This document shows, in pieces, positions 672 through 13,871 of a stretch of DNA of 37,782 nucleotides. A program made the translations under genes and the position numbers. The stretch is from Candidatus Dadabacteria bacterium (GTDB lineage: Bacteria; Desulfobacterota_D; UBA1144; Nemesobacterales; Nemesobacteraceae), in assembly GCA_009840385.1 (NCBI GenBank), contig VXNX01000008.1, forward strand, positions 1 to 37,782. Direction: 5' to 3'. Position 1 is the first letter of the stretch. The number at the start of each line of letters is the position of its first letter. The notes beneath the pieces are model-generated. The model ran no database searches and was not told the origin of the DNA. It saw only the letters and a list, made by a program, of their open reading frames with translations.

Positions 672-1147
672 GGCAAATCCCTGCAAGCATCTCGCCGCTT
701 CCTCGGCGGTATTCCTTTCTTTCCACCCTCTTCCCACAGTTTTCTTGCCTGCCTGTGGGTATCTCGATAACATTCAATCCAGAAATGTTTTTTAAACAAT
801 GGCTTATGATAGTTAATGTTGTAGTAGTATCCACCATGTCTACAGCGAGGGTTGAGTTTCACCAACACTACTTGTGGCGAAATTTGGTTGTCCAAGTCAG
901 AAAGGCAAAACAATGCTTCTACACTTCCTTTCTGGTGACCTCCTTTCCATGCAATCATTTCTACCAATTCCGCCCCCTTGGTAGTTCTGTAAACAACATC
1001 GTTAATCAGATAACTGATATGTTGGTTACAGTATTTCCCTTTTGGTTTTCGGAATTCTTCAAAACAAGTCTCTCCCAAGGCCGAGAGAGTTCCTATAGGC
1101 AGGAATATAAAAACAAGACAAAACACAAGACAAAATCTTCTCACCAT
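668..1147 (-). CDS. IS cargo: secreted cysteine-containing protein of unknown function
   Basis: The start at 1147 (MVRRFCLVFCLVFIF...) gives a 159-aa protein with a clear N-terminal signal peptide (hydrophobic residues about 5-24, small residues near SALGE). The mature part contains several cysteines, a GGYYYN motif, many His/Tyr residues, and a basic C-terminus (GKKGIPPRKRRDACRDLP). The frame is open farther upstream, but that extension crosses an inverted repeat and would bury the signal peptide. The start at 1147 follows GGGGTG. It overlaps the lipoprotein gene by ATGA, so the two form a coupled pair that would act outside the cytoplasmic membrane. I recognise no family. Lying inside the element, it is cargo rather than chromosomal sequence. 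Confidence 0.55.
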   Translation of the reverse strand: MVRRFCLVFCLVFIFLPIGTLSALGETCFEEFRKPKGKYCNQHISYLINDVVYRTTKGAELVEMIAWKGGHQKGSVEALFCLSDLDNQISPQVVLVKLNPRCRHGGYYYNINYHKPLFKKHFWIECYRDTHRQARKLWEEGGKKGIPPRKRRDACRDLP

Positions 1148-1216
1148 GCCACACCCCGCTTTGTGTTTGGCAGTAGAAGTGACACCATGGGTGCCGGGCG
1201 CATAGGCGCCGGGTCT

Positions 1217-1313
1217 TGTTGGCTTCAGTACGATTTTGAAGTTGCGTCTGTTTCCCAGATGGGTCTTATATTCCACGCAAACCCGGCAGAGCGGGTTCGT
1301 ACTGAAGCCAACA
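1217..1313. repeat. 17-bp perfect inverted repeat with TGT/ACA ends
   Basis: TGTTGGCTTCAGTACGA at 1217-1233 has its exact reverse complement at 1297-1313, separated by 63 bases. The interval contains a small hairpin AACCCG/CGGGTT (minus strand). It lies between the transposase stop and the cargo pair. It may be a long transcription-terminator structure or the footprint of a 97-bp miniature element nested in the IS. No target duplication is visible around it. Confidence 0.6.
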
Positions 1314-1385
1314 GTTTCAATAGTAACAAATTACAATTAAAATTACTAGTAAGGAGAAGATTTAACGCCTTGCTTGATGCAATGG

Positions 1386-2237
1386 CTAAAGGTTCTCCAC
1401 CAGATCAGAGAAAATCGAAGCGGGATCCTTCCGCCGGTTGTAGCGATACTCGAACTCCTTTACATACTTCCAAAGGTGTTTCGGGGAAACATGAACATGC
1501 GTCCCCTGAATCGAAAGCTTCAAACGAGACCAAAAACCTTCAAGAGAGTTAACATGAGAACCATCTTTGACATATTCGCCAGCACCGTGGTTAACCGTCC
1601 TATGCTCATATCCGGCACGGGCAAGCCCCATGTAAGAACGGAGTTCGTCGGTATGAACAGTGCTTCCCGGAAGGATGTTCTCATAGATGATAGGCTGGAG
1701 AGTGCGTTTGCGGACATTGGGAACGACCTTCGCCATAAGTTCACCGCCTCGCTCCATCATTCCGAATACAACGGCTTTTCCGTCAGCTCCCCGACCCCTC
1801 TTTCCGGGGCGCTTGCCGCCGATATAGGTTTCATCGGCCTCTACTTCTCCGTCAAGCGGGTTTTCATCATCCACCTGGGCCATGTACTTTCTTATCTCAT
1901 GCGCCATTCTCCAAGCCGTCTTGTAAGTAACTCCAAGCTGTCTCTGAAGCTCCTTTGCGGAGATTCCGTGTCGGGAAGCGGAGAACAGATACATTGCGTA
2001 AAACCATTTATGAAGTGGCGTGCGGGAACGCTCAAACGGAGTTCCGGCGCACGGGTAAAGATGGTGCCCGCAGAACTGGCAAACATAGTTAGGCTGTTTC
2101 TTCATTTTGTGGAACTTGCTGTCTCGTTTACACTTCGGGCATTCAAGCCGAGTTCCGCCATAGCGGGAAACCATGATCTGGTGAAGGCAAGCGTCATCAT
2201 CAGGAAACATTTCTTGAAACTGGTAAAAATTAATCAT
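1386..2237 (-). CDS. IS1595-family (ISXO2-like) DDE transposase
   Basis: The 283-aa protein catalyses cut or copy of its own element. It has an N-terminal zinc ribbon with Cys33-x2-Cys36 and Cys53-x2-Cys56, then the ISXO2-like catalytic fold. Acidic residues are visible at D136 (EADETYIGG), D197 (VHTDELRSY) and E233 (NSLEGFWSRLK), the family's usual spacing. The length is normal and the frame is intact. The ATG at 2237 is preceded by AAGGAG on the minus strand. Its probable promoter lies in the right TIR, leaving a leader of about 230 nt that is antisense to the 60-aa gene at 2266-2448. This suggests control of transposase expression by antisense transcription. Confidence 0.93.
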   Translation of the reverse strand: MINFYQFQEMFPDDDACLHQIMVSRYGGTRLECPKCKRDSKFHKMKKQPNYVCQFCGHHLYPCAGTPFERSRTPLHKWFYAMYLFSASRHGISAKELQRQLGVTYKTAWRMAHEIRKYMAQVDDENPLDGEVEADETYIGGKRPGKRGRGADGKAVVFGMMERGGELMAKVVPNVRKRTLQPIIYENILPGSTVHTDELRSYMGLARAGYEHRTVNHGAGEYVKDGSHVNSLEGFWSRLKLSIQGTHVHVSPKHLWKYVKEFEYRYNRRKDPASIFSDLVENL

Positions 2238-2242
2238 TTATG
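2214..2242 (+). promoter_or_regulatory. Possible promoter for the 60-aa gene, inside the transposase 5' end
   Basis: TTGAAA (2214-2219) and TTTATG (2237-2242) are 17 bases apart and precede the GGAGGTG ribosome-binding site at 2254-2260. Agreement with the -10 consensus is moderate, so this is tentative. Confidence 0.3.
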
Positions 2243-2265
2243 CATTGCTCCTTGGAGGTGAATTT

Positions 2266-2448
2266 ATGGGAACTGTTCCCTACAAAGTAGTTTTTATAGA
2301 CATCGAGGAACCTCTTATTGTTAACGCCTCGGAAATTGTTGAAACTGATACCGGGTTTGTCGTCTTTTATGATGATGCCAACGTGAAAATTGCAAGCATC
2401 CCGAAAGACAAGGTACGTTACGTTAAGAAAGTTAACAATGGCAAATAA
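2266..2448 (+). CDS. IS-encoded 60-aa protein antisense to the transposase leader
   Basis: The product starts MGTVPYKVVFIDIEEP and ends KDKVRYVKKVNNGK. It has alternating hydrophobic and charged residues as in a small beta-rich fold (a VFYDD turn near the middle) and no signal or membrane helix. The ATG at 2266 has the best Shine-Dalgarno in the element (GGAGGTG with a 5-base spacer). An in-frame ATG 21 bases earlier lacks one. The gene is divergent from the transposase, with 28 bases between start codons, and is covered by any transcript from the right TIR promoter. Function unknown; its position makes a regulator or accessory factor of transposition plausible, but nothing proves it. The opposite-strand frame 2230-2472 is less protein-like. 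Confidence 0.6.
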   Translation: MGTVPYKVVFIDIEEPLIVNASEIVETDTGFVVFYDDANVKIASIPKDKVRYVKKVNNGK

Positions 2449-2478
2449 ATTTAATACCCATGTTTTCTTCATGGTAAT

Positions 2479-2506
2479 AATATAACCACCAAACTAAGTA
2501 TGTCAA
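2479..2506 (-). promoter_or_regulatory. Inward promoter within the right TIR, for the transposase
   Basis: On the minus strand TTGACA (2506-2501) lies in the TIR and is followed after 16 bases by TATATT (2484-2479). It mirrors the left-end promoter and points toward the transposase. An ATG lies six bases after the -10 box (2472), opening an 80-codon frame that ends just inside the transposase start. This could be a leaderless leader peptide, or chance. Confidence 0.55.
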
Positions 2507-2519
2507 GGGGATAATTACG
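2495..2519 (-). repeat. Right terminal inverted repeat of the IS1595-family element
   Basis: The reverse complement matches the left end in 23 of 25 positions. The outermost base, 2519, abuts the target duplication. Confidence 0.88.
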
Positions 2520-3144
2520 TAGTTTTATGCCACTCTGCAGGGAAGACGCAGTATACGATATGCCCTCCGTCGAGTTGTCCCGCAGGCATGAGATTCAAGA
2601 CGGTTACAAAAAGACCTATCCATCCTGCAAACGCGACTGGATGCAGCAAAAGCTCGTATCCCTGGGCAACTTCCCCAACGGCCACTTTAGAAAAAAGAGC
2701 GAATACGAGGGAATTACCAAGAGACATGGCCGTCTGCATCTCGGAAAACCTCTCGGAATCCAAAGCGACCACATCTGAGAAAAGCAGCCCGATAAATAAG
2801 ACGGGAAGAGCTACCACCACGCCGGCTATGGGACCGGCAACCCCGATGTCAAAAAGCTCCTTCCGGCCGCGTATCTGGGATTTTATCCGTATAAACGCTC
2901 CGAACGTCCCGATCGGGGAGAGAAAAGGAGGGGCGGGGATAAACCAGGGAAGAGTTATTGAAACCCCGTATTTCCTGCCGTAAAAGTAATGCCCCATCTC
3001 ATGGGCTCCAAGGATAGCCACCAGGGAAAGCGAGAAAAGAATCCCGCCGGTATAAGTTCCGCTTATCATGTAGCCGGAGAGAAAAGTGGTAGCAGCTGTA
3101 AGGACAAAAAGTACCAGCGGAATGGCGGTAGATCTCGTGATCAT
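2515..3144 (-). pseudogene. Site-2 protease (M50 family), C-terminus cut off by the IS element
   Basis: Residues 1-209 of an intramembrane zinc metalloprotease. The signature HEMGHY is near residue 49 and the distal motif NLMPAGQLDGGHI is near residue 184; hydrophobic helices surround both. Family members normally continue for one or more helices after that motif. Here the protein ends ...AEWHKTT because the stop codon (2515-2517) lies inside the right TIR of the inserted element. The lost frame resumes at 55-1. The ATG at 3144 follows the ptsP stop by two bases, so it was co-transcribed with ptsP. The catalytic motifs are all present, so residual activity is possible, but the last membrane segment is missing. 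Confidence 0.88.
2520..2527. repeat. Right copy of 8-bp target site duplication
   Basis: TAGTTTTA, identical to 48-55, immediately outside the right TIR. Confidence 0.88.
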
Positions 3145-3146
3145 GG

Positions 3147-5441
3147 CTACTCTGCTTCGAGCAACATAGGGTTTATCGAGTTAACAACGTCCTTTAAGTA
3201 CCTTTCTATATCAGACTCCTTTTTGAGAAGCAATACGTGCGACCTGATCTCCTCAAGCATCTGCTCAGAAAGTCTGTCTGAAAGAAATTTTACGTATGGA
3301 AACCGAAGCGGCGAAACGCTCAGGTGACGGTAACCAAGAGCCAGTATCAACAGGGTGCCGGAAGGAACTCCCGCTATTTCTCCACAGATGTTAAGCTCCT
3401 TTCCGCTTGAGATAACCTGCTCCCTTGTAAAATCCAGCATTCTCACCACTGAAGGATGAAAAGCCGAGTAAAGATGTCCGACCGCGTTTGAATTTCTATC
3501 AACCGCGAGCAGATACTGTATAAGGTCGTTTGTCCCGATGGAAACGAAATCTATTAAATCCGCGTAATCCCCGAACTGATACGCAAGGGCCGGAACCTCC
3601 ATCATTATTCCGAGCTTCGGTATGTCATGCCGGTGAAGACTCACTTCGGCGGACAGTTTTTCAATTATCTGCGCCGCGGTCTCAACTTCCCAGACATTTG
3701 AAACCATGGGCAGAAGGATCTTGAAATTTCCCCCTTTTTTCGCCGCCAGCAAAATGGATTTCACCTGATCTCTGAAAAGATCCAGATACTCCATTGAAAA
3801 GCGGATTGACCGAAGGCCAAGAAGGGGGTTTTCTTCCTTGGGCATTTTGAGGTAGGAAAGTATCTTGTCAGAACCCACATCCAGTGTCCTGATCGTCACT
3901 TCACCCTCAAAATTCCCTGAGATTTCCTTGTATATCTTCAGTTGGGATCTCACGCTCGGCCATTTTTTAAACCGCGCGAAGGCAAACTCTGTTCTGAAAA
4001 GTCCCGCACTTCTTATTCCGTAACGCTTAGCCACCTCGACATCGGCCGGAATCCCGACATTCGCTGTTATTTTCACATCAATACCTGTAGCGGTACTTTT
4101 TATAGCTTCGGTCTCTATGAAGTGCCGGAGCTTAACCGCTCTTTCATGCATAGCCAGATACTCATCCTTTAACACCTGGTCAGGATTTGTGAAAATGAAG
4201 CCGCTTCTTCCGTCAACTATCATATCCTCACCGGGATGCACCAGGTTCACGATGTTGTCTATTCCCACAACCACCGGGATCCCAAGCGATTTCGCTATTA
4301 TGATCGCATGAGAGGTCTCTCCGCCTTTTTCAAGCACTATCCCACCGACTTCTCCCTCAACGGCCGTAACGAAAGACACTCCTATCTCTCTTGCGACAAG
4401 TATTAAGGGTTCTCCATCGGCGGAAGCGGGGATATTTTCATTTTTTGAATGAGTAAGGTCCCGGAGAATTCTTTCGCCTATATCCCTGAAATCATGGGCC
4501 CGTTCCCTCATATATGAATCTGGAAGAGACTCGAAACGCGATGCCTGTAATTCAAGATACTCGACCACCGCGGCTTCGGCCGAAACTCTCTTCTCATCTA
4601 TAAGCTTGCCGGTTCCTTTCTCCATGTCGCGGCTGTCAACTATCATCAGGTGTGAGCGGAAAATATCCACTTCGTTTTTCGAAAGCTTGCCCTCAGAATC
4701 CATTTTTTTAATAGTCTTTTTAAGGTCTTGTGATATATTCTTTATAGAATTTCTAACTCTTCTTTTCTCGATTCTGGGAGTGTGTGCCGTCATTTCCATC
4801 GTAGACATCCGGCGGAAAAGCCCGCGGAAGGTAACCGCCTTTCCAACGGCTATCCCCTCAGAAACTCCTTTTCCCTGATAGGTTGTCGTCTCGTGTTTTA
4901 CCATGGATGGAGGTTTCAGCCGGTCCAAGGTGTTCGCGACTTCAAGGACCCCGGCAAGTCGCAAAGCTACAATCTGAAAAAGAGTCTGCTCGGCCGGGGT
5001 TATCTGCATCGGGGTCTTGTTCTGGCCCACAAGCACCCCGACGCATATGTCGTGGAGCATTATGGGAACACCTATGTAGCTTTCGTATTCCTCTTCGCCT
5101 ATTTCGGGGAAATACTTGTAATTCGAATGCTCCGAAGCCGGCATGGCGATCAGAGGAACTTTGGTTTTATGAACCGTTCCGGTAAGACCTTCATCCGAAC
5201 GCAAAAGGATGTCACTTTTCGATTTAACTTGGAGACCCCTGTTAGCCACAAGCCTGAGAACTTCCCTCAGATCATCCCAGACGTATATGGAGACGACATC
5301 GTAGTGAAGCGAGGAGGAAATCTTTCTTACTACCCTGCCCAAAACGGTGTTAAGGCCCACGGACTTGTTGATCAAGTCGCTTATCTCGTGGACCACTTTT
5401 AGATGGAAATGCTCCGGTTCTGTGCGATCTTTGGTAATCAT
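3147..5441 (-). CDS. ptsP: PtsP, GAF-domain phosphoenolpyruvate-protein phosphotransferase (EI-Ntr)
   Basis: The 764-aa protein is enzyme I of the nitrogen-type phosphotransferase system: it takes phosphate from PEP and passes it to an HPr/NPr-type carrier in the cytoplasm. A GAF sensor domain fills about residues 10-165. The EI N-terminal helical domain and swivelling phosphohistidine domain follow, with GGETSHA placing the active His at about 378. The C-terminal PEP-binding barrel shows LFRTEFAF, RTLDVGSDK, GIMMEVPA, SIGTNDLIQ and the catalytic Cys in NICGEIAG (about 686). No other PTS component is in the window. GAGTG precedes the ATG, and an extended -10 promoter lies just upstream. It is followed by the disrupted M50 gene. 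Confidence 0.95.
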   Translation of the reverse strand: MITKDRTEPEHFHLKVVHEISDLINKSVGLNTVLGRVVRKISSSLHYDVVSIYVWDDLREVLRLVANRGLQVKSKSDILLRSDEGLTGTVHKTKVPLIAMPASEHSNYKYFPEIGEEEYESYIGVPIMLHDICVGVLVGQNKTPMQITPAEQTLFQIVALRLAGVLEVANTLDRLKPPSMVKHETTTYQGKGVSEGIAVGKAVTFRGLFRRMSTMEMTAHTPRIEKRRVRNSIKNISQDLKKTIKKMDSEGKLSKNEVDIFRSHLMIVDSRDMEKGTGKLIDEKRVSAEAAVVEYLELQASRFESLPDSYMRERAHDFRDIGERILRDLTHSKNENIPASADGEPLILVAREIGVSFVTAVEGEVGGIVLEKGGETSHAIIIAKSLGIPVVVGIDNIVNLVHPGEDMIVDGRSGFIFTNPDQVLKDEYLAMHERAVKLRHFIETEAIKSTATGIDVKITANVGIPADVEVAKRYGIRSAGLFRTEFAFARFKKWPSVRSQLKIYKEISGNFEGEVTIRTLDVGSDKILSYLKMPKEENPLLGLRSIRFSMEYLDLFRDQVKSILLAAKKGGNFKILLPMVSNVWEVETAAQIIEKLSAEVSLHRHDIPKLGIMMEVPALAYQFGDYADLIDFVSIGTNDLIQYLLAVDRNSNAVGHLYSAFHPSVVRMLDFTREQVISSGKELNICGEIAGVPSGTLLILALGYRHLSVSPLRFPYVKFLSDRLSEQMLEEIRSHVLLLKKESDIERYLKDVVNSINPMLLEAE

Positions 5442-5473
5442 TGGGTCACTCCACTACACACTAAGAAACTAAT

Positions 5474-5482
5474 ATTATACCA
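5474..5482 (-). promoter_or_regulatory. Extended -10 promoter of ptsP
   Basis: On the minus strand TGG-TATAAT (5482-5474) is a perfect -10 box with the TGn extension, about 32 bases before the ptsP ATG. No good -35 box is seen, as is common for extended -10 promoters. Confidence 0.6.
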
Positions 5483-5584
5483 GCATCAGGTACAGTCAGC
5501 GGAAAAAAGAAAAGCTGAAGAATATCTGTAGAAAACCGAAAGAAGAAAAGTTTTTCCGGGAATAGATTTATAATATATTGTGTA

Positions 5585-5590
5585 TATAAT
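5585..5590 (+). promoter_or_regulatory. -10 box directly before the ferredoxin reductase gene
   Basis: TATAAT at 5585-5590 leaves nine bases before the ATG at 5600. A second TATAAT lies about 15 bases further upstream. There is no Shine-Dalgarno sequence, so a leaderless or near-leaderless transcript is likely. Confidence 0.45.
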
Positions 5591-5599
5591 TCCCACGGC

Positions 5600-6979
5600 A
5601 TGAATCTTAAAACAGTAAAAGTTGCCATCGTCGGATCGGGACCCGCAGCTTTCTACGCGGCCGATCATCTGCAGAAGAAACTCGGCGACCGCGTCTTCAT
5701 GGACATGTTCGAGAAACTCCCGACTCCCCACGGTCTCGTGAGAAGCGGCGTGGCTCCCGACCACCAGAAGATAAAGAGCGTAGCCAGGGTTTATGACAAA
5801 ATCGCGTCAAATCCCCAATTCAGGTTTTTCGGGCTTGTAGAGTTCGGAAAACACTTAACACTTGAGAACCTACGCAGGCGTTACCACCAGATAGTCATCG
5901 CGACTGGAGCCCAGACCGACAGAAAAATGGGCATACCCGGAGAGAACCTGATTGGAAGCCACACGGCAACGGAATTCGTAGGCTGGTACAACACCCACCC
6001 GGACCACATGGGCCTTGGTTTTGACTTTTCGGGGAAAAGAGTCGTTATAGTCGGAGTTGGAAACGTTGCGGTGGATGTCGCGAGAATTCTCTCTCTAACA
6101 AGAAGCGAAATGGAAAAGACGGATATTGCGGACTATGCACTTGAGAAACTGGCCGAAAGCGGAATAAAGGAGATACAGATGCTGGGAAGAAGGGGACCCG
6201 CGCAGGCGGCTTTCACTAATCCCGAGCTGCGGGAACTTGAGAAGCTCGAGGACGCAGACCTTCTCGTCCTGCCGGACGAAGCGGAACCGGACTTCCTTAC
6301 GCTTGAGGAACTTGAACGCAAGCCGGACAGGGCAGCCCAGACGAAAATAGAGCTTATAAAAAAAGCTTCCGAAAGGGTTCCATCCAAATCGAAAAAAATC
6401 ATCATAAGGTTCCTGGTTTCTCCAACAGAGATAATCGCCGGGGAAAACAATAAGGTAAAAAGCGTCAAGGTCGTTAAAAACAGGCTTTACAGATCCGATG
6501 ACGGTTCCCTTCGGCCCAAACCCACGAACGAAACTGAAGAGATCCCCACCGATCTGGTCTTTCGTTCCGTCGGGTATCGGGGAATACCCCTTCCGGACGT
6601 GCCGTTTGACGACAATTCGGGGGTAATCCCCAATGAAAAAGGAAGAGTGCTTGACGAAGCTGGCGGAAACCCGATTCCGGGACTCTACACCACCGGGTGG
6701 ATAAAACGCGGGCCGACCGGGGTTATCGGCACGAACAAGACCGACTCCGGCGAAACCGTAAGCTGCATGGTCGAGGACATTGAGGAGAAAAATACGCTGC
6801 GTCCCGAACTCATTTCGGCTGAAAGCATAAAGGAACTGCTTGATGAAAAACATATTTCCTATAATGAATGGCTGCGGGTTGACTCGTTTGAAAAGAAAGA
6901 AGGGGAAAAACGGGGAAGGCCGAGAGTAAAGGTCTCGAGGCTTGAAGAAATTCTCGAGATCCTTGAAAAAGAACACTGA
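5600..6979 (+). CDS. FprA-like ferredoxin/adrenodoxin-type NADP+ reductase
   Basis: This 459-aa flavoprotein moves electrons between NADPH and a ferredoxin-type carrier. The FAD-binding GSGPAAFYAA is at residues 12-21, PTPHGLVRSGVAPDH (family signature) at 41-55, and the NADP-binding VGVGNVAVDVAR at 151-162. A C-terminal GWIKRGPTGVIGTNK, typical of adrenodoxin reductase homologues, lies near residue 370. Length matches the FprA family. The glutamate-synthase small subunit shares the fold but lacks the PHGLVR and GWIKRGP signatures. It stands alone, divergent from ptsP and convergent with the RNase gene. A 6-bp inverted repeat at 7027-7048 sits at the convergent junction. The start lacks a ribosome-binding site (see the -10 box at 5585). 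Confidence 0.9.
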   Translation: MNLKTVKVAIVGSGPAAFYAADHLQKKLGDRVFMDMFEKLPTPHGLVRSGVAPDHQKIKSVARVYDKIASNPQFRFFGLVEFGKHLTLENLRRRYHQIVIATGAQTDRKMGIPGENLIGSHTATEFVGWYNTHPDHMGLGFDFSGKRVVIVGVGNVAVDVARILSLTRSEMEKTDIADYALEKLAESGIKEIQMLGRRGPAQAAFTNPELRELEKLEDADLLVLPDEAEPDFLTLEELERKPDRAAQTKIELIKKASERVPSKSKKIIIRFLVSPTEIIAGENNKVKSVKVVKNRLYRSDDGSLRPKPTNETEEIPTDLVFRSVGYRGIPLPDVPFDDNSGVIPNEKGRVLDEAGGNPIPGLYTTGWIKRGPTGVIGTNKTDSGETVSCMVEDIEEKNTLRPELISAESIKELLDEKHISYNEWLRVDSFEKKEGEKRGRPRVKVSRLEEILEILEKEH

Positions 6980-7045
6980 AGCGGGCGGCTCTCCCCAGTC
7001 GAGAAACGCATACTTGCTTGAATTCAGTTTCCGACGCGCCTGAAA

Positions 7046-9049
7046 CTACGCCGGACTCACGCGTATCCTTCTCCTGAGAGGATCTGATCCCCAAACAGAG
7101 AGGGAGAGTTCGCTTCCTATATCAAAAATCCTGCCACCGGCATTAGAAAGCGCAAGTTCGATCAGGAACTCAGGTATATAAACGTTAAACCCGTTATATC
7201 CCTTGGAACTCACGTAGCCTGTCGCCCCCTTTATATCCTTTTCCAGAAGATAGCGGATAAGCCAGTACCTGTGTCTGCTTCTCTGCGCGTTTTTTATTTC
7301 TCTGGTGGCAAGGCTAACCCGCGTGTTTATGTTTTCAAGCTCGCTCTCCGAGTAGCAAATCTTCTGTTCCCCGAGCCAAGATATAAGCTGGCGCTGCATG
7401 AGAAGGTCCGTATACCTTCTGATCGGAGAAGTCATCTGTACATAACAGGCAACTCCCAGCGACTTGTGGATTTCGGGAGCAAAAGTAACAAAGGAGGGTT
7501 TTAAGTGCTTTATTACCCTTACCGGAAAAAGAGCATCTCCGGGGTCAAGTTCTCTGGCTTCAGGATCAATCTCCTGGGTTTGGGAACGAAAGAGAGCAGG
7601 AATTTCATTTTTACCGAAGAAGTCTGCTGAAAGCCGGTTCATAAGTATCATGCATTCGGATACGACGTCGTGAGCGGGAGAATCCATGTAGTCCTTGCTG
7701 ACCGAGATTTCTTCCCGGTCTCGGACCCTGATTTTAAGTTCCGGGAGTTGAACTATAAAAGCTCCATTCTCGACTCTTTCGCTTCTAAGCGAATCAGTAA
7801 GGCTTACAAGCAAGTTCCCCCATTTCGTCTGGTCAAATATTTCGGTTGCTTCGGTGTAGCTAAGATTTTTTGAAACCCTTATGACTGTCGTATCAAAGCG
7901 ATAATCGATCAAAGTAGAGTCTTCTTTCTTAAAAGTGGCGAAAAGGGAAAGTGCAGGTCGGAGGTCGCCGGCGGTTAGACTGAGTTTCTGACTCACGAGT
8001 TCCTGGGGAAACATATCCACGCGCTGCTCGGGGAAATAAACCGTTTCGGCGCGCTCAAGAGCCCCTTGATCAAGAAAAGATCCCCTGTTTACAAAATGGG
8101 CGACATTCGAGATGTGGACCCCCAGAATTACCAAGTCTCCGCGCGTTTCAAGGGAGATGGCATCATCAATGTCCTGCGTTGTCTCGCTGTCAACGGAAAA
8201 AGCATCAAGATCCGTTCTGTCAGTAAGACCCGCAAAGTCTTCCTGAGCGTTCAAAATAGCTTTGACCTCTTCGAGCATTCTTTGCGAGTGTTTGAAATGA
8301 AAGGAGATTTTTTTCGATTCCGGGTCATCGTCTTTCTTCCAAAAACCCGTCTTTATAAGAAATTCAACTGCCAATTCCACTTCCTTAACCCCCGCCTCGT
8401 AAAGAAAAGCCTTGGCTTCCTTAGCTCTCTCGTAGCCGTCAAGATCCATAACGTACCTCTCAATCAGTTCAAGAAATTCTCTGTGGTTCTCATCAACCAC
8501 TGAAGGAATTTCACCGCTCAGAACGGAACGCACCCAGTTTACTGCAACCTGCGCTTTTTGCTCTCTTTCTCTTCTGAGTTCAAGGGCACGGAGAGTCTTG
8601 GAAACATCCTCCTGTGAACGGACGAGGTAACCGTCTTCTGCTCTTGCCAAGTAAACAGTGTTTTTATCTACTGCCCAGAAAAGCAGGAGCCTTTGCTCTG
8701 AAGAAACCTGCTCTGTCCCCGACGAATACAGATCAAGGATCTCCGCAAAGCTCACAATCTCCTGTTCCCCCACGACGCACTGCCACAAAGTCTCCAGATC
8801 AACTGACTCCTTTTTTTCCTCGAGGTCTCTCCTCCACTTCCTCATTTCGAGTTTTTTCTCAGATTCGGTCAGGGTTTCGGGAACAGTTATTCCGGTGAGC
8901 AGTGCAACTTTTTTCGGTTCAACATCGTAGCGCTTTCCGTCCTCTGAGAAAACAGAGAATTTGTCGGGATGAACAGAAAGAACGACTCCGAGGGTAGGTT
9001 CCCTCCTTTTTCTGTAGGCAATAAGTTCGTTTATGCTGGGGAAATTCAT
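7046..9049 (-). CDS. RNB-domain exoribonuclease (RNase II/R family)
   Basis: This 667-aa protein degrades single-stranded RNA 3' to 5'. The catalytic RNB domain begins near residue 275 with SVDSETTQDIDDAIS, which carries the magnesium-binding aspartates. It ends with TSPIRRYTDLLMQRQL, containing the conserved arginines. A short OB-like C-terminus follows. The N-terminal 270 residues are helical and charged, unlike the cold-shock domains of full RNase R, so it resembles the shorter RNase II-like forms common outside gamma-proteobacteria. I leave rnb/rnr unassigned. It starts 17 bases after the pyrG stop and is probably co-transcribed with it. Confidence 0.9.
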   Translation of the reverse strand: MNFPSINELIAYRKRREPTLGVVLSVHPDKFSVFSEDGKRYDVEPKKVALLTGITVPETLTESEKKLEMRKWRRDLEEKKESVDLETLWQCVVGEQEIVSFAEILDLYSSGTEQVSSEQRLLLFWAVDKNTVYLARAEDGYLVRSQEDVSKTLRALELRREREQKAQVAVNWVRSVLSGEIPSVVDENHREFLELIERYVMDLDGYERAKEAKAFLYEAGVKEVELAVEFLIKTGFWKKDDDPESKKISFHFKHSQRMLEEVKAILNAQEDFAGLTDRTDLDAFSVDSETTQDIDDAISLETRGDLVILGVHISNVAHFVNRGSFLDQGALERAETVYFPEQRVDMFPQELVSQKLSLTAGDLRPALSLFATFKKEDSTLIDYRFDTTVIRVSKNLSYTEATEIFDQTKWGNLLVSLTDSLRSERVENGAFIVQLPELKIRVRDREEISVSKDYMDSPAHDVVSECMILMNRLSADFFGKNEIPALFRSQTQEIDPEARELDPGDALFPVRVIKHLKPSFVTFAPEIHKSLGVACYVQMTSPIRRYTDLLMQRQLISWLGEQKICYSESELENINTRVSLATREIKNAQRSRHRYWLIRYLLEKDIKGATGYVSSKGYNGFNVYIPEFLIELALSNAGGRIFDIGSELSLSVWGSDPLRRRIRVSPA

Positions 9050-9066
9050 CGAACGGAATAATTCGA

Positions 9067-10680
9067 TCAGTTAAGAGAATCCTTGTAACGAAGCGCCCCT
9101 TTTATGAAATCCCTGAAAAGCGGGTGGGCGCTTAGGGGCTTTGACTTGAATTCGGGGTGAAACTGACAGCCGACGAACCAAGGATGATCCTTAAGTTCCA
9201 TGATTTCGACCAGATTCCCATCCGGTGAAAGGCCGCAAAGAATCATTCCCTTAGACTCAAGGATTTCCCTGTAGCTGTTGTTCACTTCAAACCGGTGACG
9301 GTGTCTTTCGGAGATTTCGGAAGCCCCGTAGATGCTGCTTGCCAGGGTCTTGGGTTTTAAGACGCAAGGATAGGCCCCGAGTCTCATTGTCCCGCCCTTC
9401 TCGTTTATGTTCTTTTGCGATTCCATTATGTCTATAACGGGATTCTCCGTACCGCTGTTATTCTCGGTAGTATCTGCGTCACTCATGCCGCACACGCTTC
9501 TTGAAAACTCAATAACGGCAAGCTGCATTCCGTAACAAATCCCGAAGAAAGGAATCTGATTTTCCCTTGCATACTTCGTGGCGCAGACTTTGCCGTCAAT
9601 TCCTCTCTCTCCGAAACCCCCGGGAACGAGTATGCCATGGACATCGGAGAAGTAGTCCTGAGGGCATGTTCTGTCCATTTCCTCCGAATCCACATATTTT
9701 ATTTCAACGGTTGAATCATTGGCTATGCCACCGTGGTAGAGGGCTTCGTGAAGACTCTTGTAAGCATCTCCGTGTGAAACATATTTTCCGACAACGGCTA
9801 TGCGCACGGTCTTTTTCACACTTTTTATTCTTCGAACCAGATCTTCCCACTCCCCCATGTCGGGTTTTTTGGTCCACATGCCAAGATACTCAATGATTAT
9901 CTCGGCAAGTCCTTCCTTCTTGTACATAAGCGGAACTTCATATATGTGCTCAACATCCTTAGCCGTAATCACCGCTTTTTGTTCAACGTTGCAGAAAAGA
10001 GCTATTTTTCTCTTAACGTCTTCCGGAAGGAACTTGTCCTCGGTGCGACACAGAAGTATGTCGGGCTGAATTCCTATCTGGAGAAGCTCCTTTACGCTGT
10101 GTTGCGTAGGTTTTGTTTTCAGTTCTCCGGCGGCGGCCACGTAGGGAACATAAGTAAGATGGATGAAAAGCGTGTTCTGTTTACCAAGATCCGACCTTAA
10201 CTGCCTCACAGCCTCAAGAAAAGGGAGACTTTCTATATCTCCCACCGTACCGCCTATCTCAACTATGATAACGTCGTTACCGTCCTCAAGGGCGCGCACG
10301 CGGGATTTTATCTCATCCGTTATGTGAGGGATAACCTGGACCGTTTTGCCGAGGAACTTACCCTCTCTCTCTTTGGAAATAACGGAATCGTAGACCTTGC
10401 CGCTTGTGAGATTATTTTTCTTGCCGAGATGGGCTTTGGTAAATCTTTCGTAGTGACCGAGATCGAGATCCGTTTCGGCCCCGTCATCGGTAACAAACAC
10501 CTCCCCGTGCTCAAAAGGATTCATCGTGCCCGGATCGACGTTTATGTAGGGATCAAGCTTCTGAAGAGTGACTCGAAGACCGCAACATTCAAGAAGGAAG
10601 CCTATCGAAGAAGCGGAGATACCCTTTCCCAGAGAAGACATAACTCCGCCGGTAACAAAAATAAATTTCGCGCTTTTCAC
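9067..10680 (-). CDS. pyrG: CTP synthase
   Basis: The 537-aa enzyme makes CTP from UTP, ATP and glutamine. The synthetase domain starts [16 protein letters not shown] with the P-loop, and has [11 protein letters not shown] and [11 protein letters not shown]. The glutaminase domain has the nucleophile Cys382 in FFGICYGMQ and QFHPEF near residue 506. Length is normal. Translation starts with GTG at 10680, supported by AAGGGG about eight bases upstream. It is the first gene of a probable pyrG-RNase transcript. Confidence 0.97.
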
Positions 10681-10885: not shown

Positions 10886-11488
10886 CTATTTCAAGCCTGA
10901 AAAATATGATAGGAGTTTTCCTGAGGCAATAGCTCTGTGACTTATCCTGTTTTTTATCTCGGGACCAAGTTCAGCCATGGTTTTCCCGTACTGAGGAACA
11001 TAAAAAACTGGGTCGTAACCAAAACCGCTTTCGCCTCTTTTTTCCTGGATAATCTGTCCGCTACATTCGCCTTCAAAAAATTCCTGTGCCCCATCCGCAC
11101 GTACTAAAGCAATACAGCAAACAAATTTGGCTTTTCTGTTGTTCTCTTCTTTGAGTTCGGACAGAAGCTTTTCGTTGTTATCATCATCGGATGCCCCCTT
11201 CCCCGCGTACCTAGCTGAATAAATCCCAGGAGCTCCCCCCAAAGCATCAACAACCAATCCTGAATCATCTCCAATAGCATCCATTCCAAGAAAATCAGAG
11301 GTTGTCTTCGCCTTGATAAAAGCATTTTCCCTGAAAGAAAGACCTGTCTCCTCTATATCAGGAATATTGTTAAAGTCAGAAAGAGAAAGAATATCATCGT
11401 AAGCATCGGCAAGAATCGATCTGAATTCTCTCAGCTTTCCTTTGTTTTTAGTGGCAATTACTATGGTTCTACGTTTTATATTGACCAC
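10886..11488 (-). CDS. rdgB: RdgB/HAM1 XTP/dITP diphosphatase
   Basis: The 200-aa protein hydrolyses non-canonical purine nucleoside triphosphates to monophosphates, keeping inosine and xanthosine out of nucleic acids. N-terminal TKNKGKLREF matches the substrate-binding motif; DDSGLVVDALGGAPGIYSARY and SGFGYDPVF are the other family signatures, and SHRAIA is near the end. The start is GTG at 11488 with AAGGA close upstream. It stands alone between pyrG and the phage scar; 10681-10885 holds no convincing gene. Confidence 0.95.
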   Translation of the reverse strand: MVNIKRRTIVIATKNKGKLREFRSILADAYDDILSLSDFNNIPDIEETGLSFRENAFIKAKTTSDFLGMDAIGDDSGLVVDALGGAPGIYSARYAGKGASDDDNNEKLLSELKEENNRKAKFVCCIALVRADGAQEFFEGECSGQIIQEKRGESGFGYDPVFYVPQYGKTMAELGPEIKNRISHRAIASGKLLSYFSGLK

Positions 11489-11591
11489 TAGTCCTTGAAG
11501 TCCTTTTCACTATCCTTGGTTTTATCGTTTTTAGCGTTACTTGGTTAAAAGTTGACCAAAATATCTCTGGGGTTAGAACGTGCGTATGTGA

Positions 11592-11843
11592 AGATACCAT
11601 ATTCTAGTAATTAGAGAAGAACGTCAGCGATTCCCTCATGCGACAATTGATCCGCTCGAGAAACTTGTCGCAGAAGAACTCACGGAAAAGTTTGAATTTC
11701 CCGTGTCCCTGAATTTCGATTCCCTGATGGTAAGCGATATTTCAGGGCGTGCAAGGGCTTTTCAAAGCATGGTAGGTGGTGGCATGGATATAGAAAAAGC
11801 AGCTGCCCTTTCAGGATTAATGGTGGAATCTGACAGTGATTGA
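11592..11843 (+). pseudogene. C-terminal remnant of a phage portal protein
   Basis: The open frame, preceded by a stop at 11589-11591, encodes about 83 residues without a plausible start. They include HATIDPLEKLVAEEL, FDSLMVSDISGRARAFQSM and GGGMDIEKAAALSGLM. The last two resemble the C-terminal region of HK97-type phage portal proteins, where a similar RARAFQ...GGM...AAALSGLM pattern occurs. The N-terminal several hundred residues are missing, so this is a relic. The family call rests on memory of the motif and needs a profile search. Confidence 0.5.
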
Positions 11844-11988
11844 TGGACAGAAACTTTCGGAACTTCCGGAGATCCCGGTCTTGGAAATAAAACTTGATGA
11901 CGTGCTTTACATTGTCAAGACATCGAACCCGAAAGTCTCTTATAAAATTACATTACAACGGCTAAAAGAATGGTTAGACAGTCAATGA
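11836..11988 (+). CDS. Small phage protein with a KISELP-type domain
   Basis: From the GTG at 11836, overlapping the end of the portal remnant, 50 residues read QKLSELPEIPVLEIKLDD, then LYIVKT, then KITLQRLKEWLDSQ. This ISELP ... D-D-hydrophobic ... KITL-x-LKEWL pattern is common in short phage structural-region proteins. The gene overlaps the next frame by ATGA. GTG is the only usable start; GGTGG lies about nine bases upstream. Part of a phage relic; whether it is expressed is unknown. Confidence 0.45.
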   Translation: MIDGQKLSELPEIPVLEIKLDDVLYIVKTSNPKVSYKITLQRLKEWLDSQ

Positions 11989-12074
11989 AAAAGAAGAGCA
12001 AAGTTTACCGGTGTCAATACTGCGGAGCCATGAAGAAACATCCAGATCAGAAATGTAAGGAGTGCGGATTATAA
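11985..12074 (+). CDS. 29-aa zinc-ribbon microprotein
   Basis: The frame starts with an ATGA overlap with the preceding phage gene. It encodes a basic peptide with two CxxC pairs (CQYCG and CKECG) spaced as in a zinc ribbon. The translational coupling and the terminator just downstream support it as a real last gene of a small phage-derived operon. Function unknown. Confidence 0.45.
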   Translation: MKKKSKVYRCQYCGAMKKHPDQKCKECGL

Positions 12075-12095
12075 TTCCCCGATCTGTTCTAGTAG

Positions 12096-12152
12096 CCCCG
12101 CCGGTGTCGGGGAAGCCTACCCCAGGGCAGCTAATCACTGGCGGGGGTTTTT
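12096..12152 (+). terminator. Strong terminator with a hairpin nested in its loop
   Basis: CCCCGCCGGTG (12096-12106) pairs with CACTGGCGGGG (12136-12146), an 11-bp stem with one G-T pair, followed by a run of Ts (12148-12152). The 29-base loop contains GGGG/CCCC (12109-12112 with 12120-12123), and its loop GCCT could pair with GGGC just downstream, forming a pseudoknot. It directly follows the zinc-ribbon gene and probably ends that transcript; the extra structure is unusual. Confidence 0.65.
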
Positions 12153-12256
12153 CTTGTTGCGCCGTTTGCGCTTATGAAAAAATCCCGGCTGGTTTCCCCC
12201 TGTGTGGACTTGAGGCGCGTGGCCGGGTATTTCTTTTAACAGTCTAAAAGCAGACT

Positions 12257-12303
12257 AAGGTTCTTGTGGTAATTCTCCCGAATCGGCACAAGAACCTTTT
12301 TTT
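12257..12303 (+). terminator. Rho-independent terminator
   Basis: AAGGTTCTTGTG (12257-12268) and CACAAGAACCTT (12287-12298) form a perfect 12-bp stem, followed by five further Ts. A small AGTCT/AGACT hairpin (12241-12256) abuts it on the left. It lies upstream of the membrane-protein gene, with no recognisable gene directly before it. Confidence 0.75.
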
Positions 12304-12351
12304 ATCCCACCTGTATGATGGTTGGCGACGGGAACAGGTAGAATTAATTTT

Positions 12352-12888
12352 ATGGAAGAAACCAAAACTGCTCTAATTAAATCACTAACTGAATCAAGTA
12401 AAGCAAAAATTCTTATTTCTTTGTTCTTTTTGCTTCTTTCCCTCATAATAGCCTTCAATTTCAAAGAAAGTCAGACCGAAATGACTCCCGAAGTTTTAAA
12501 ATACTTTGTTCCTGCTTCCTACGCAGGAATAGTGGTTTTTCTTTTCTGGTTTTTATATGAAGCCGTTTGGCAACAACTTCCAGAGCAAAAGTTTGCTTCA
12601 CGTTATGAGGAAATACACTCTTGTCTTGGCAAGATTCAAGAGTATCTTCGCTCCCCGAACCCAATGATCTCTCCAATAAGTCCTCTCGAAACTCAGGCTT
12701 CCTTTCTGGTACTTGGAAATATGCTTGAGAAGAGATTTGGTATTGCTTATCCTTTATATTCTGAAGGCGAAGAGCAAAGAAGTTACTTCGTGATATGCTC
12801 TTCATTCTTAATTGCGATGCTGAAGTATGCCGAGACAGGTGACTTGAAAGGAGCTAAAGAATACTCTAAAGCTTTCAGAAATTCTTAG
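12352..12888 (+). CDS. Two-helix membrane protein of unknown function
   Basis: The 178-aa protein has a short polar N-terminus and two membrane segments (about residues 20-36 and 56-77, the second Trp/Phe-rich). A cytoplasmic or periplasmic helical region of about 100 residues follows, with PISPLETQASFLVLGNM and an Ala/Lys-rich end. I recognise no family. The ATG at 12352 is chosen over an upstream in-frame TTG (12322); AGGT lies 12 bases before it, a weak site. It sits alone in the accessory stretch between rdgB and ssrA, after a strong terminator, so it probably has its own promoter. Likely part of horizontally acquired material. Confidence 0.6.
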   Translation: MEETKTALIKSLTESSKAKILISLFFLLLSLIIAFNFKESQTEMTPEVLKYFVPASYAGIVVFLFWFLYEAVWQQLPEQKFASRYEEIHSCLGKIQEYLRSPNPMISPISPLETQASFLVLGNMLEKRFGIAYPLYSEGEEQRSYFVICSSFLIAMLKYAETGDLKGAKEYSKAFRNS

Positions 12889-13055
12889 AGCCTACAGATT
12901 TTTAAAAAGTTATACTAATCTCGAAATGGCAGGCTTGAAACTCTAGCCCTGAGATTCGGGTTTATAGCTACAACTTTCACGTTAAGTCTTGGAACTCCAG
13001 CAGTTAGAGTAAGTTTGACTTTAACGTCACGTGGTTTTCTATTACCAAAGTTCCG

Positions 13056-13278
13056 AAATCTTTCACTAATATCAAAAAAGGCTTTATCGGTGAGAACGTA
13101 TCCCGCAAAGCGATGGTCTATACGGATGACCACAGAAGCTATATAGGACTTCCCTTTGAACATGAGAGCGTAAACCATAGCGTAGGGGAGTATGTGAGGG
13201 ATATGACTCATACGAATGGAATAGAGAGCTTTTGGGCAGTATTAAAGCGTGGGTACTATGGAACCTATCACCGCATAT
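13056..13278 (+). pseudogene. IS1595-type transposase fragment (catalytic C-terminal part)
   Basis: The frame from about 13056 encodes VYTDDHRSYIGLPFEH, NHSVGEYVRDMTHTNGIESF and WAVLKRGYYGTYHRISP. This matches the second Asp and the N..IESFW..LKRG..GT.H..SP block of ISXO2-like transposases. It differs clearly from the intact copy at 1386-2237, so it comes from another subgroup. The N-terminal zinc ribbon and first Asp are missing, and the frame breaks after HRISP. No inverted ends were found. A decayed IS copy. Confidence 0.75.
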
Positions 13279-13381
13279 CCCCGACACGCCGGAGAATGTA
13301 GCTAAGGCTTTGTTCTCTACTCCGCCCAAAGAATATAATGAGTGGAAATATCTTAAGAAACTGGCTGGTTCCGAGGAGTGA
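13278..13381 (+). pseudogene. C-terminal fragment of a small unidentified protein fused to the IS scar
   Basis: In a different frame from the transposase fragment, the sequence reads TPENVAKALFSTPPKEY followed by EWKYLKKLAGSEE and a TGA at 13379-13381. The composition looks like a genuine small-protein C-terminus rather than a random frame. It is joined to the transposase fragment at about 13278, which marks a deletion or insertion boundary. The rest of the gene is missing. Confidence 0.35.
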
Positions 13382-13520
13382 AATCACGGAGTTTGGTTAG
13401 GATTGTATATAATTCCTTTCCAATTATAGATATCCCATTTCAATAGTGGGACGGAAAGGGAGATAAGACTACCACTCTTTCCGAAAAATTCTTTATCTTC
13501 AGTGAGTTATAAAAATACTG

Positions 13521-13871
<351 letters not shown>

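Follow-up and report, generated by a model that had tools for sequence, protein, structure and literature searches.

Genomic islands at ssrA, the tmRNA gene, are as such long known, and those of the Islander type and of Dehalococcoides are described as carrying a regenerated ssrA and a displaced fragment of the gene at their ends (PMC4383910, PMC3146451). Among satellites, in which a replication gene such as a primase is described as common (PMC10803314), two further groups come close to the locus reported here. The capsid-forming phage-inducible chromosomal islands (cf-PICIs), whose gene set is given in PMC13230959, work with their own heads and foreign tails; their capsids have been divided into three clades (PMC11389934), and the hosts listed in PMC10803314, where an average size of 14 kb is given, do not include Dadabacteria. 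The PICMIs of the Vibrionaceae are portrayed in the same paper as small elements with an integrase and AlpA, with a primase and without capsid genes, located at fis. We found no report of satellite-like elements with their own heads in Dadabacteria in the open-access literature (one library, in which absence is unproven). Here we present an interval between rdgB and ssrA in a genome of Candidatus Dadabacteria which is very probably a scar left at the ssrA 3' end by the entry of an integrative, satellite-like element with head genes.

The window, by which we mean the whole stretch of DNA analysed (37,782 nucleotides), is one whole contig (C8) of a genome of 1.66 Mb in 14 contigs. The gene rdgB, whose name comes from the original prediction and agrees with its translation, lies on the minus strand at 10886-11488, and ssrA, the integration target, on the same strand at 13521-13871, with its 3' end facing rdgB. 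The tag encoded by this tmRNA has 9 residues only, AEPINALAA, and is identical in the loci of eight relatives with a whole ssrA by ARAGORN. Between the two genes the original prediction had seen a phage and IS graveyard with five items, namely a portal C-terminus, a "KISELP-type" protein, a zinc-ribbon microprotein, an orphan membrane protein and a broken transposase; all five are present in the sequence, two of them under weak labels.

The first item is the C-terminal end of a phage portal gene (11627-11843, plus strand, in a frame open from 11592). The phage profile search of 11592-12074 that had been proposed did find portal similarity, albeit weak: the frame from 11592 scores below the curated cut-off against Pfam Phage_portal (E = 0.00099) and reaches a portal PHROG at E = 0.18 only. 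What supports the portal label is homology to the portal of an IMG/VR element (L050/L055, described below), with 84% amino acid identity over 70 residues and, for 11627-11823, 77% DNA identity to L055; the full-length portal of L055 itself stands above the Pfam cut-off (E = 2.7e-10, 40.4 vs 39.1 bits). Neither the window's portal end nor the L055 capsid had a match at E<=0.01 among 50,697 phage records. An ORF at 11836-11988 (plus strand) overlaps the portal stop by 8 nt; the ORF is real and without family, and its KISELP-type label finds no support in Pfam, PHROGs or NCBIfam, nor does it have a match in IMG/VR. It overlaps in turn, by ATGA, a 29-aa zinc-ribbon-like ORF (11985-12074, plus strand), which is where it was said to be, with a Zn_ribbon_3 match that falls below the cut-off (E = 0.00034). 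The overlapping series of portal stop and two small ORFs reads like the end of an operon. A strong hairpin followed by a T run at 12257-12298 (plus strand, fold -20.9 kcal/mol, z -6.09, equalled in stability by 0 of 200 shuffles) is the likely terminator of these portal-side genes; it is absent from the list of the consensus promoter and terminator scan, whose counts were at or below the shuffled means. A GC-rich hairpin, also followed by a T run, at 12096-12146 (plus strand, -31.8 kcal/mol, z -1.98, 6 of 200 shuffles equally stable) is a possible terminator, and a third candidate at 12174-12242 was dropped, as it did not stand out from the shuffles (z -0.60, 52 of 200).

With the portal end as query, one contig was retrieved from IMG/VR (IMGVR_UViG_3300002734_000009, hereafter L055; 11,531 bp), which starts in the pyrG-rdgB region and ends within ssrA. 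The 14-mer TGGTGGAGGCGCCG, which is the ssrA 3' end, occurs in it at 954 (rdgB flank) and at 11279 (ssrA start), and identity between the two core sites extends over exactly 14 bases; the ssrA 3' end is rebuilt at the ssrA side of the element. In a GTDB scan with rdgB, 80 loci were retained, the eight best being Candidatus Dadabacteria MAGs. One of these eight, L065 (CATOTB010000005.1), is the empty site of L055, which it matches at 97.6% over 968 bp on the left and at 99.2% over 253 bp on the right, with an overlap of the two matches by the same 14 bases. With one core counted, the element measures 10,325 bp. Beside the insert the window is 85-87% identical to L065, and the host of L055 is therefore a relative belonging to another species than the window's. 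L055 is the only intact copy known and comes from a metagenome contig, and searches of IMG/VR with its TerL, capsid and full portal, which reach close relatives only, returned L055 alone.

From rdgB to ssrA, L055 contains the displaced core, a tyrosine integrase (PF00589, PF22022, PF13356), a 196-aa ORF with weak helix-turn-helix matches, AlpA (PF05930, E = 9.9e-22), a 168-aa ORF on the minus strand with no function assigned, TerL (PF20441), an HNH protein (PF01844), a major capsid protein of the HK97 type (PF05065; TIGR01554 above cut-off), a prohead protease of family S78 (PF04586), a 103-aa ORF, the portal (PF04860), which is the last head gene, three opposing ORFs on the minus strand with no confident family, and ssrA. 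The 103-aa ORF has no profile match in Pfam, PHROGs or NCBIfam; from its position, we label it a putative connector. Fold predictions were of low confidence both for this connector-like protein (mean pLDDT 51.1) and for the 196-aa protein (36.7). Pfam, PHROGs and NCBIfam assigned none of the 13 main ORFs to a tail, primase or small terminase family, a result that is qualified, for the tail, by three ORFs upstream of the portal without clear function and, for the small terminase, by the match of the HNH ORF to phrog_4581 (2.9e-15), a family that bears the name terminase small subunit, so that this absence rests on names. L055 TerL matched 433 of the 50,697 phage records with a best identity of 27.3% among the best 25 of them, its 50 pattern matches in GTDB r220 contigs yielded none that was confirmed, and the integrase had matches in 13 of 60 genomes, none of them of the window's genus, at 22-32% identity.

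In its integrase, AlpA, HNH, TerL, HK97 capsid, protease and portal, in its att-bounded length of about 10 kb and in its lack of a recognised tail, L055 resembles the cf-PICIs. It has head genes of its own (capsid, protease and portal), and PHROGs assigned no tail family to the 13 main ORFs. It differs from them in its gene order (TerL-HNH-capsid-protease-connector-portal, with the portal last) and in that neither a separate small terminase nor a replication gene such as a primase was recognised in it. On this gene content we regard L055 as a satellite-like element which is not filed as a cf-PICI but which, as we hold with moderate confidence, works like one, with heads of its own and foreign tails; for the latter it would depend on a helper phage. 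From the PICMIs, with which it shares integrase, AlpA and small size, it is set apart by its head module, the lack of a recognised primase and its location at ssrA. Bordered on either side by a copy of the ssrA 3' end in direct orientation, with a matching empty site and an integrase gene inside, L055 is comparable to the ssrA islands, from which it differs by the phage-head module; the island of the window differs from them in having lost the displaced fragment and the integrase. A search of IMG/VR with the L055 integrase gave ten loci including L055, L166 being examined by family search and nine loci by comparison with the L055 proteins. L166 (IMGVR_UViG_2831285802_000001) is a compact element whose integrase is 41% identical to that of L055 and whose order is integrase, AlpA, capsid, protease, portal, HNH, small terminase, TerL and adaptor, with a tRNA-Ser near the end of the stretch; these are the genes given for cf-PICIs in PMC13230959, and L055 has the beginning and most of this set in common with L166. 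Another locus, L167, had AlpA and TerL matches to L055, and the other seven had no TerL, capsid or portal match to its proteins.

The map of L055 gives the window's interval its bounds and a probable history. BLAST homology to two congeners (G005 and G006), to L055 and to L065 stops at 11617; the stretch 11480-11617 is chromosomal flank upstream of rdgB, common to congeners without the insert and shortened by deletion. Portal DNA homology begins at 11627, which places the deletion joint at 11618-11626. At the other side, the remaining attachment site is the 14-bp core formed by the ssrA 3' end (13521-13534), duplicated exactly in L055 and forming the overlap of the flank matches in L065. The insertion is thus 11618-13520, better bounds than the 11592-13381 given at first. 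We propose that integrase-mediated recombination on the core would have placed the element in the ssrA 3' end, and that a deletion, which we infer to have been a single event, would have fused the rdgB flank, which ends at 11617, with the portal gene, around codon 287 of the 356 in L055. On the L055 map the lost part would correspond to 920-9712, about 8.8 kb, including the last 34 flank bases before the displaced core, this core itself, the integrase, AlpA and the other head genes. The ssrA-side end would have stayed, with the portal tail, the two coupled ORFs, the terminator, perhaps cargo, and a broken IS1595; devoid of displaced core and integrase, this remnant would have lost the capacity for self-excision.

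The two absences noted at the outset fit such a history. No second ssrA end was found in the scar, a search of the full window for the 14-mer, which tolerated 2 mismatches on the plus strand and 1 on the minus strand, gave a single copy, a general repeat scan of the window gave short chance-like pairs only, and no integrase family was found among the scar ORFs tested against Pfam and PHROGs. The window would lack both because the deletion removed them: the displaced attR, for which a search had been advised, is present in the relative L055, whose map puts that copy inside the deletion. Same site, same orientation, att duplication, empty site and portal homology are established in relatives, and the window portal has the same strand and the same neighbours, rdgB and ssrA, as in L055; the attachment event is thereby read from relatives, the window's own sequence having a single core. 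Judged by its sequence, L055 is not the direct parent of the window's element, and the missing length in the window's lineage may therefore differ from 8.8 kb; neither the two small ORFs nor the membrane protein nor the IS could be matched in L055 at the DNA level or by tblastn.

It could be argued that the interval held an ordinary tailed temperate prophage at ssrA, whose genes for tail, lysis and replication disappeared along with the integrase. Only the portal end was kept, so that the deleted content is not visible, and L055, not being the direct parent, does not speak for it directly. However, the element that a relative carries at this site has heads only and lies complete between two att copies, the portal of the window is followed within 460 bases by the strong hairpin with no tail gene, and in L055, likewise, the head genes end with the portal. 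We therefore consider a tailed prophage improbable. The original prediction of a residue of integration at the ssrA 3' end is borne out by the att repeats of L055 and the empty site of L065, and its graveyard is very probably an integration remnant, but the source was probably a head-only satellite-like element and not an ordinary prophage. The scar of the window represents decay of a common sort, and it is the intact relative that holds the interest.

Remnants of the same kind are found at tRNA genes. The portal end was sought in 60 genomes, the window's own included, and matched in three: G002, G007 and the genome of the window, which has it both in this interval and on contig C5. The C5 scar contains a TerL piece (76% identity over 219 residues, with one stop), an AlpA-like ORF and the portal end, followed by tRNA-Ser; this genome is also the only one of the 60 with a match to L055 TerL, on C5. 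The scar lies at 8390-13347 of L056, and a match to the candidate defence family PDC-S02 (E = 1.6e-128) stands just upstream. G002 and G007 yielded nothing of the element but the portal end, which lies near tRNA-Leu in the former and near tRNA-Asn in the latter; the portal-like DNA of these two genomes was also considered as whole prophages, a reading that was dropped, as only short fragments are present. In all three tRNA scars the portal end is separated from the 3' end of the tRNA by an ORF, that of G007 slightly overlapping the portal match. The ORFs of C5 (L056 12465-13139) and G007 (L045 3017-3709) have no confident family in Pfam, PADLOC or PHROGs and are 36% identical over 127 residues, a kinship which suggests that they may be accessory genes of the element family. 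No exact att repeat of at least 12 bases was found at the three tRNA scars, and their mode of entry is therefore inferred from position.

We also compared the rdgB-ssrA interval across 40 genomes, made up of that of the window, 12 further members of its genus and 27 others. In G006, homology leaps from 11617 to 13498 with 12 bases between, that is, without an insert, and in G005 from 11617 to 13484 with 267 bases between. In the other congeners it ends earlier, near the rdgB start (11461-11479), and does not return towards ssrA until after 109 unmatched bases in G002, 113 in G003, 780 in G011, 803 in G007 and 1,411 in G008; G004, G010 and G012, with rdgB and ssrA on different contigs, and G001 and G009, with one of the genes only, were not scored. 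The comparison in relatives, which the original prediction had called for, shows that the window genes are not syntenic across the lineage and that contents differ; the two outcomes it had named against itself, lineage-wide synteny and no phage similarity, did not come true. Four congeners (G007, G010, G011 and G012; loci L026, L027, L030 and L033) have between rdgB and ssrA a STAS-type ORF that we take, reading by eye, to be anti-sigma antagonist-like. By eye, too, we read a presumably methyltransferase-like ORF in the interval of G008 and presumably RNase PH-like and CBS-type ORFs in that of G013, which belongs to another genus.

A 473-bp stretch of G008 lies between two exact 14-bp cores beside ssrA (L028 2766-3239), with no head genes in the stretch examined. 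It looks like a tiny or decayed second insertion, and would again point to use of this site. When the last core base is read with it, the sequence after the displaced core is GAC(C/T)ACC in G008 as well as in L055. Independently, pieces of the rdgB 3' end (61-158 bp; window 10888-11045) recur elsewhere in G002, G003 and G008, none being found in the window's own genome. All five copies examined (L038-L042) break at the base matching 11045, where a common stretch of about 80 bp begins that also stands alone in G001, G002 and G011; they look like a dispersed repeat that captured a gene end.

The remaining two items of the interval have no counterpart in L055. The membrane-protein-like ORF at 12322-12888 (plus strand), a possible cargo gene, deserves the epithet orphan given to it: no family was found at E<=0.1 in Pfam and PHROGs or at E<=0.01 in PADLOC, IMG/VR had no match, and a single distant relative (27%, in G001) was found among 56 other genomes. 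In G001 this relative lies close to a 1172-residue open frame (L177 10762-14277, contig C156), which we take, reading by eye, to be a SIR2-domain-like defence protein. The membrane ORF may have been part of the mobile element; that its product may serve as defence cargo is a hint, no more, its own match to a defence profile being absent. The broken transposase is confirmed as a remnant of the IS1595 family (13080-13381, plus strand), with its N-terminal part missing and its frame broken: DDE_Tnp_IS1595 matches 13113-13298 at E = 4.1e-15, over profile positions 80-140 of 153 only, that is, the C-terminal part. It has DNA relatives elsewhere in the congeners G008, G011 and G012. A probable IS end lies at 13391-13416, with matches of 23-35 bases in other places of G001 and G005, 96-100% identical except for one at 89%; it is the only probable end, and the repeat scan found no inverted pair around 12890-13420. 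The original prediction had counted this piece with the rest of the graveyard; it is a separate passenger.

The IS1595 remnant, together with an interval that varies within the genus and holds unrelated contents, might suggest that unrelated fragments collected in a neutral, IS-rich gap and that the portal piece arrived by chance, unconnected with ssrA. Yet the same portal type is found in the same gap and on the same strand inside the att-bounded element of a relative, and the other portal ends are close to tRNA 3' ends, and such a chance collection is very unlikely. An assembly or binning artefact, which a fragmented assembly of 14 contigs might invite, deserves hardly any credence, as flanks and insert stand on one contig in the order of the congeners and an element of this kind occupies the site in a second, independent contig.

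Reading the interval as the scar of a satellite-like element turns odd fragments into a sequence of events, an integration at ssrA on a mapped 14-bp core followed by deletion of the mobile half. The intact relative points to Dadabacteria as hosts of satellite-like elements that encode heads of their own. As a tentative generalisation, which we put forward with less than even confidence, Dadabacteria may have their own lineage of head-making satellites (TerL first and portal last, with no recognised small terminase, primase or tail, at ssrA and several tRNAs) that decay one way, the integrase side being deleted and the RNA-gene side kept with an accessory gene, whereby cargo that was once mobile ends up fixed in the genome. 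If this is true, domestication events could be counted by their fossil, the portal end that survives. A portal 3' end beside an RNA gene also provides a marker for such scars in other small genomes.
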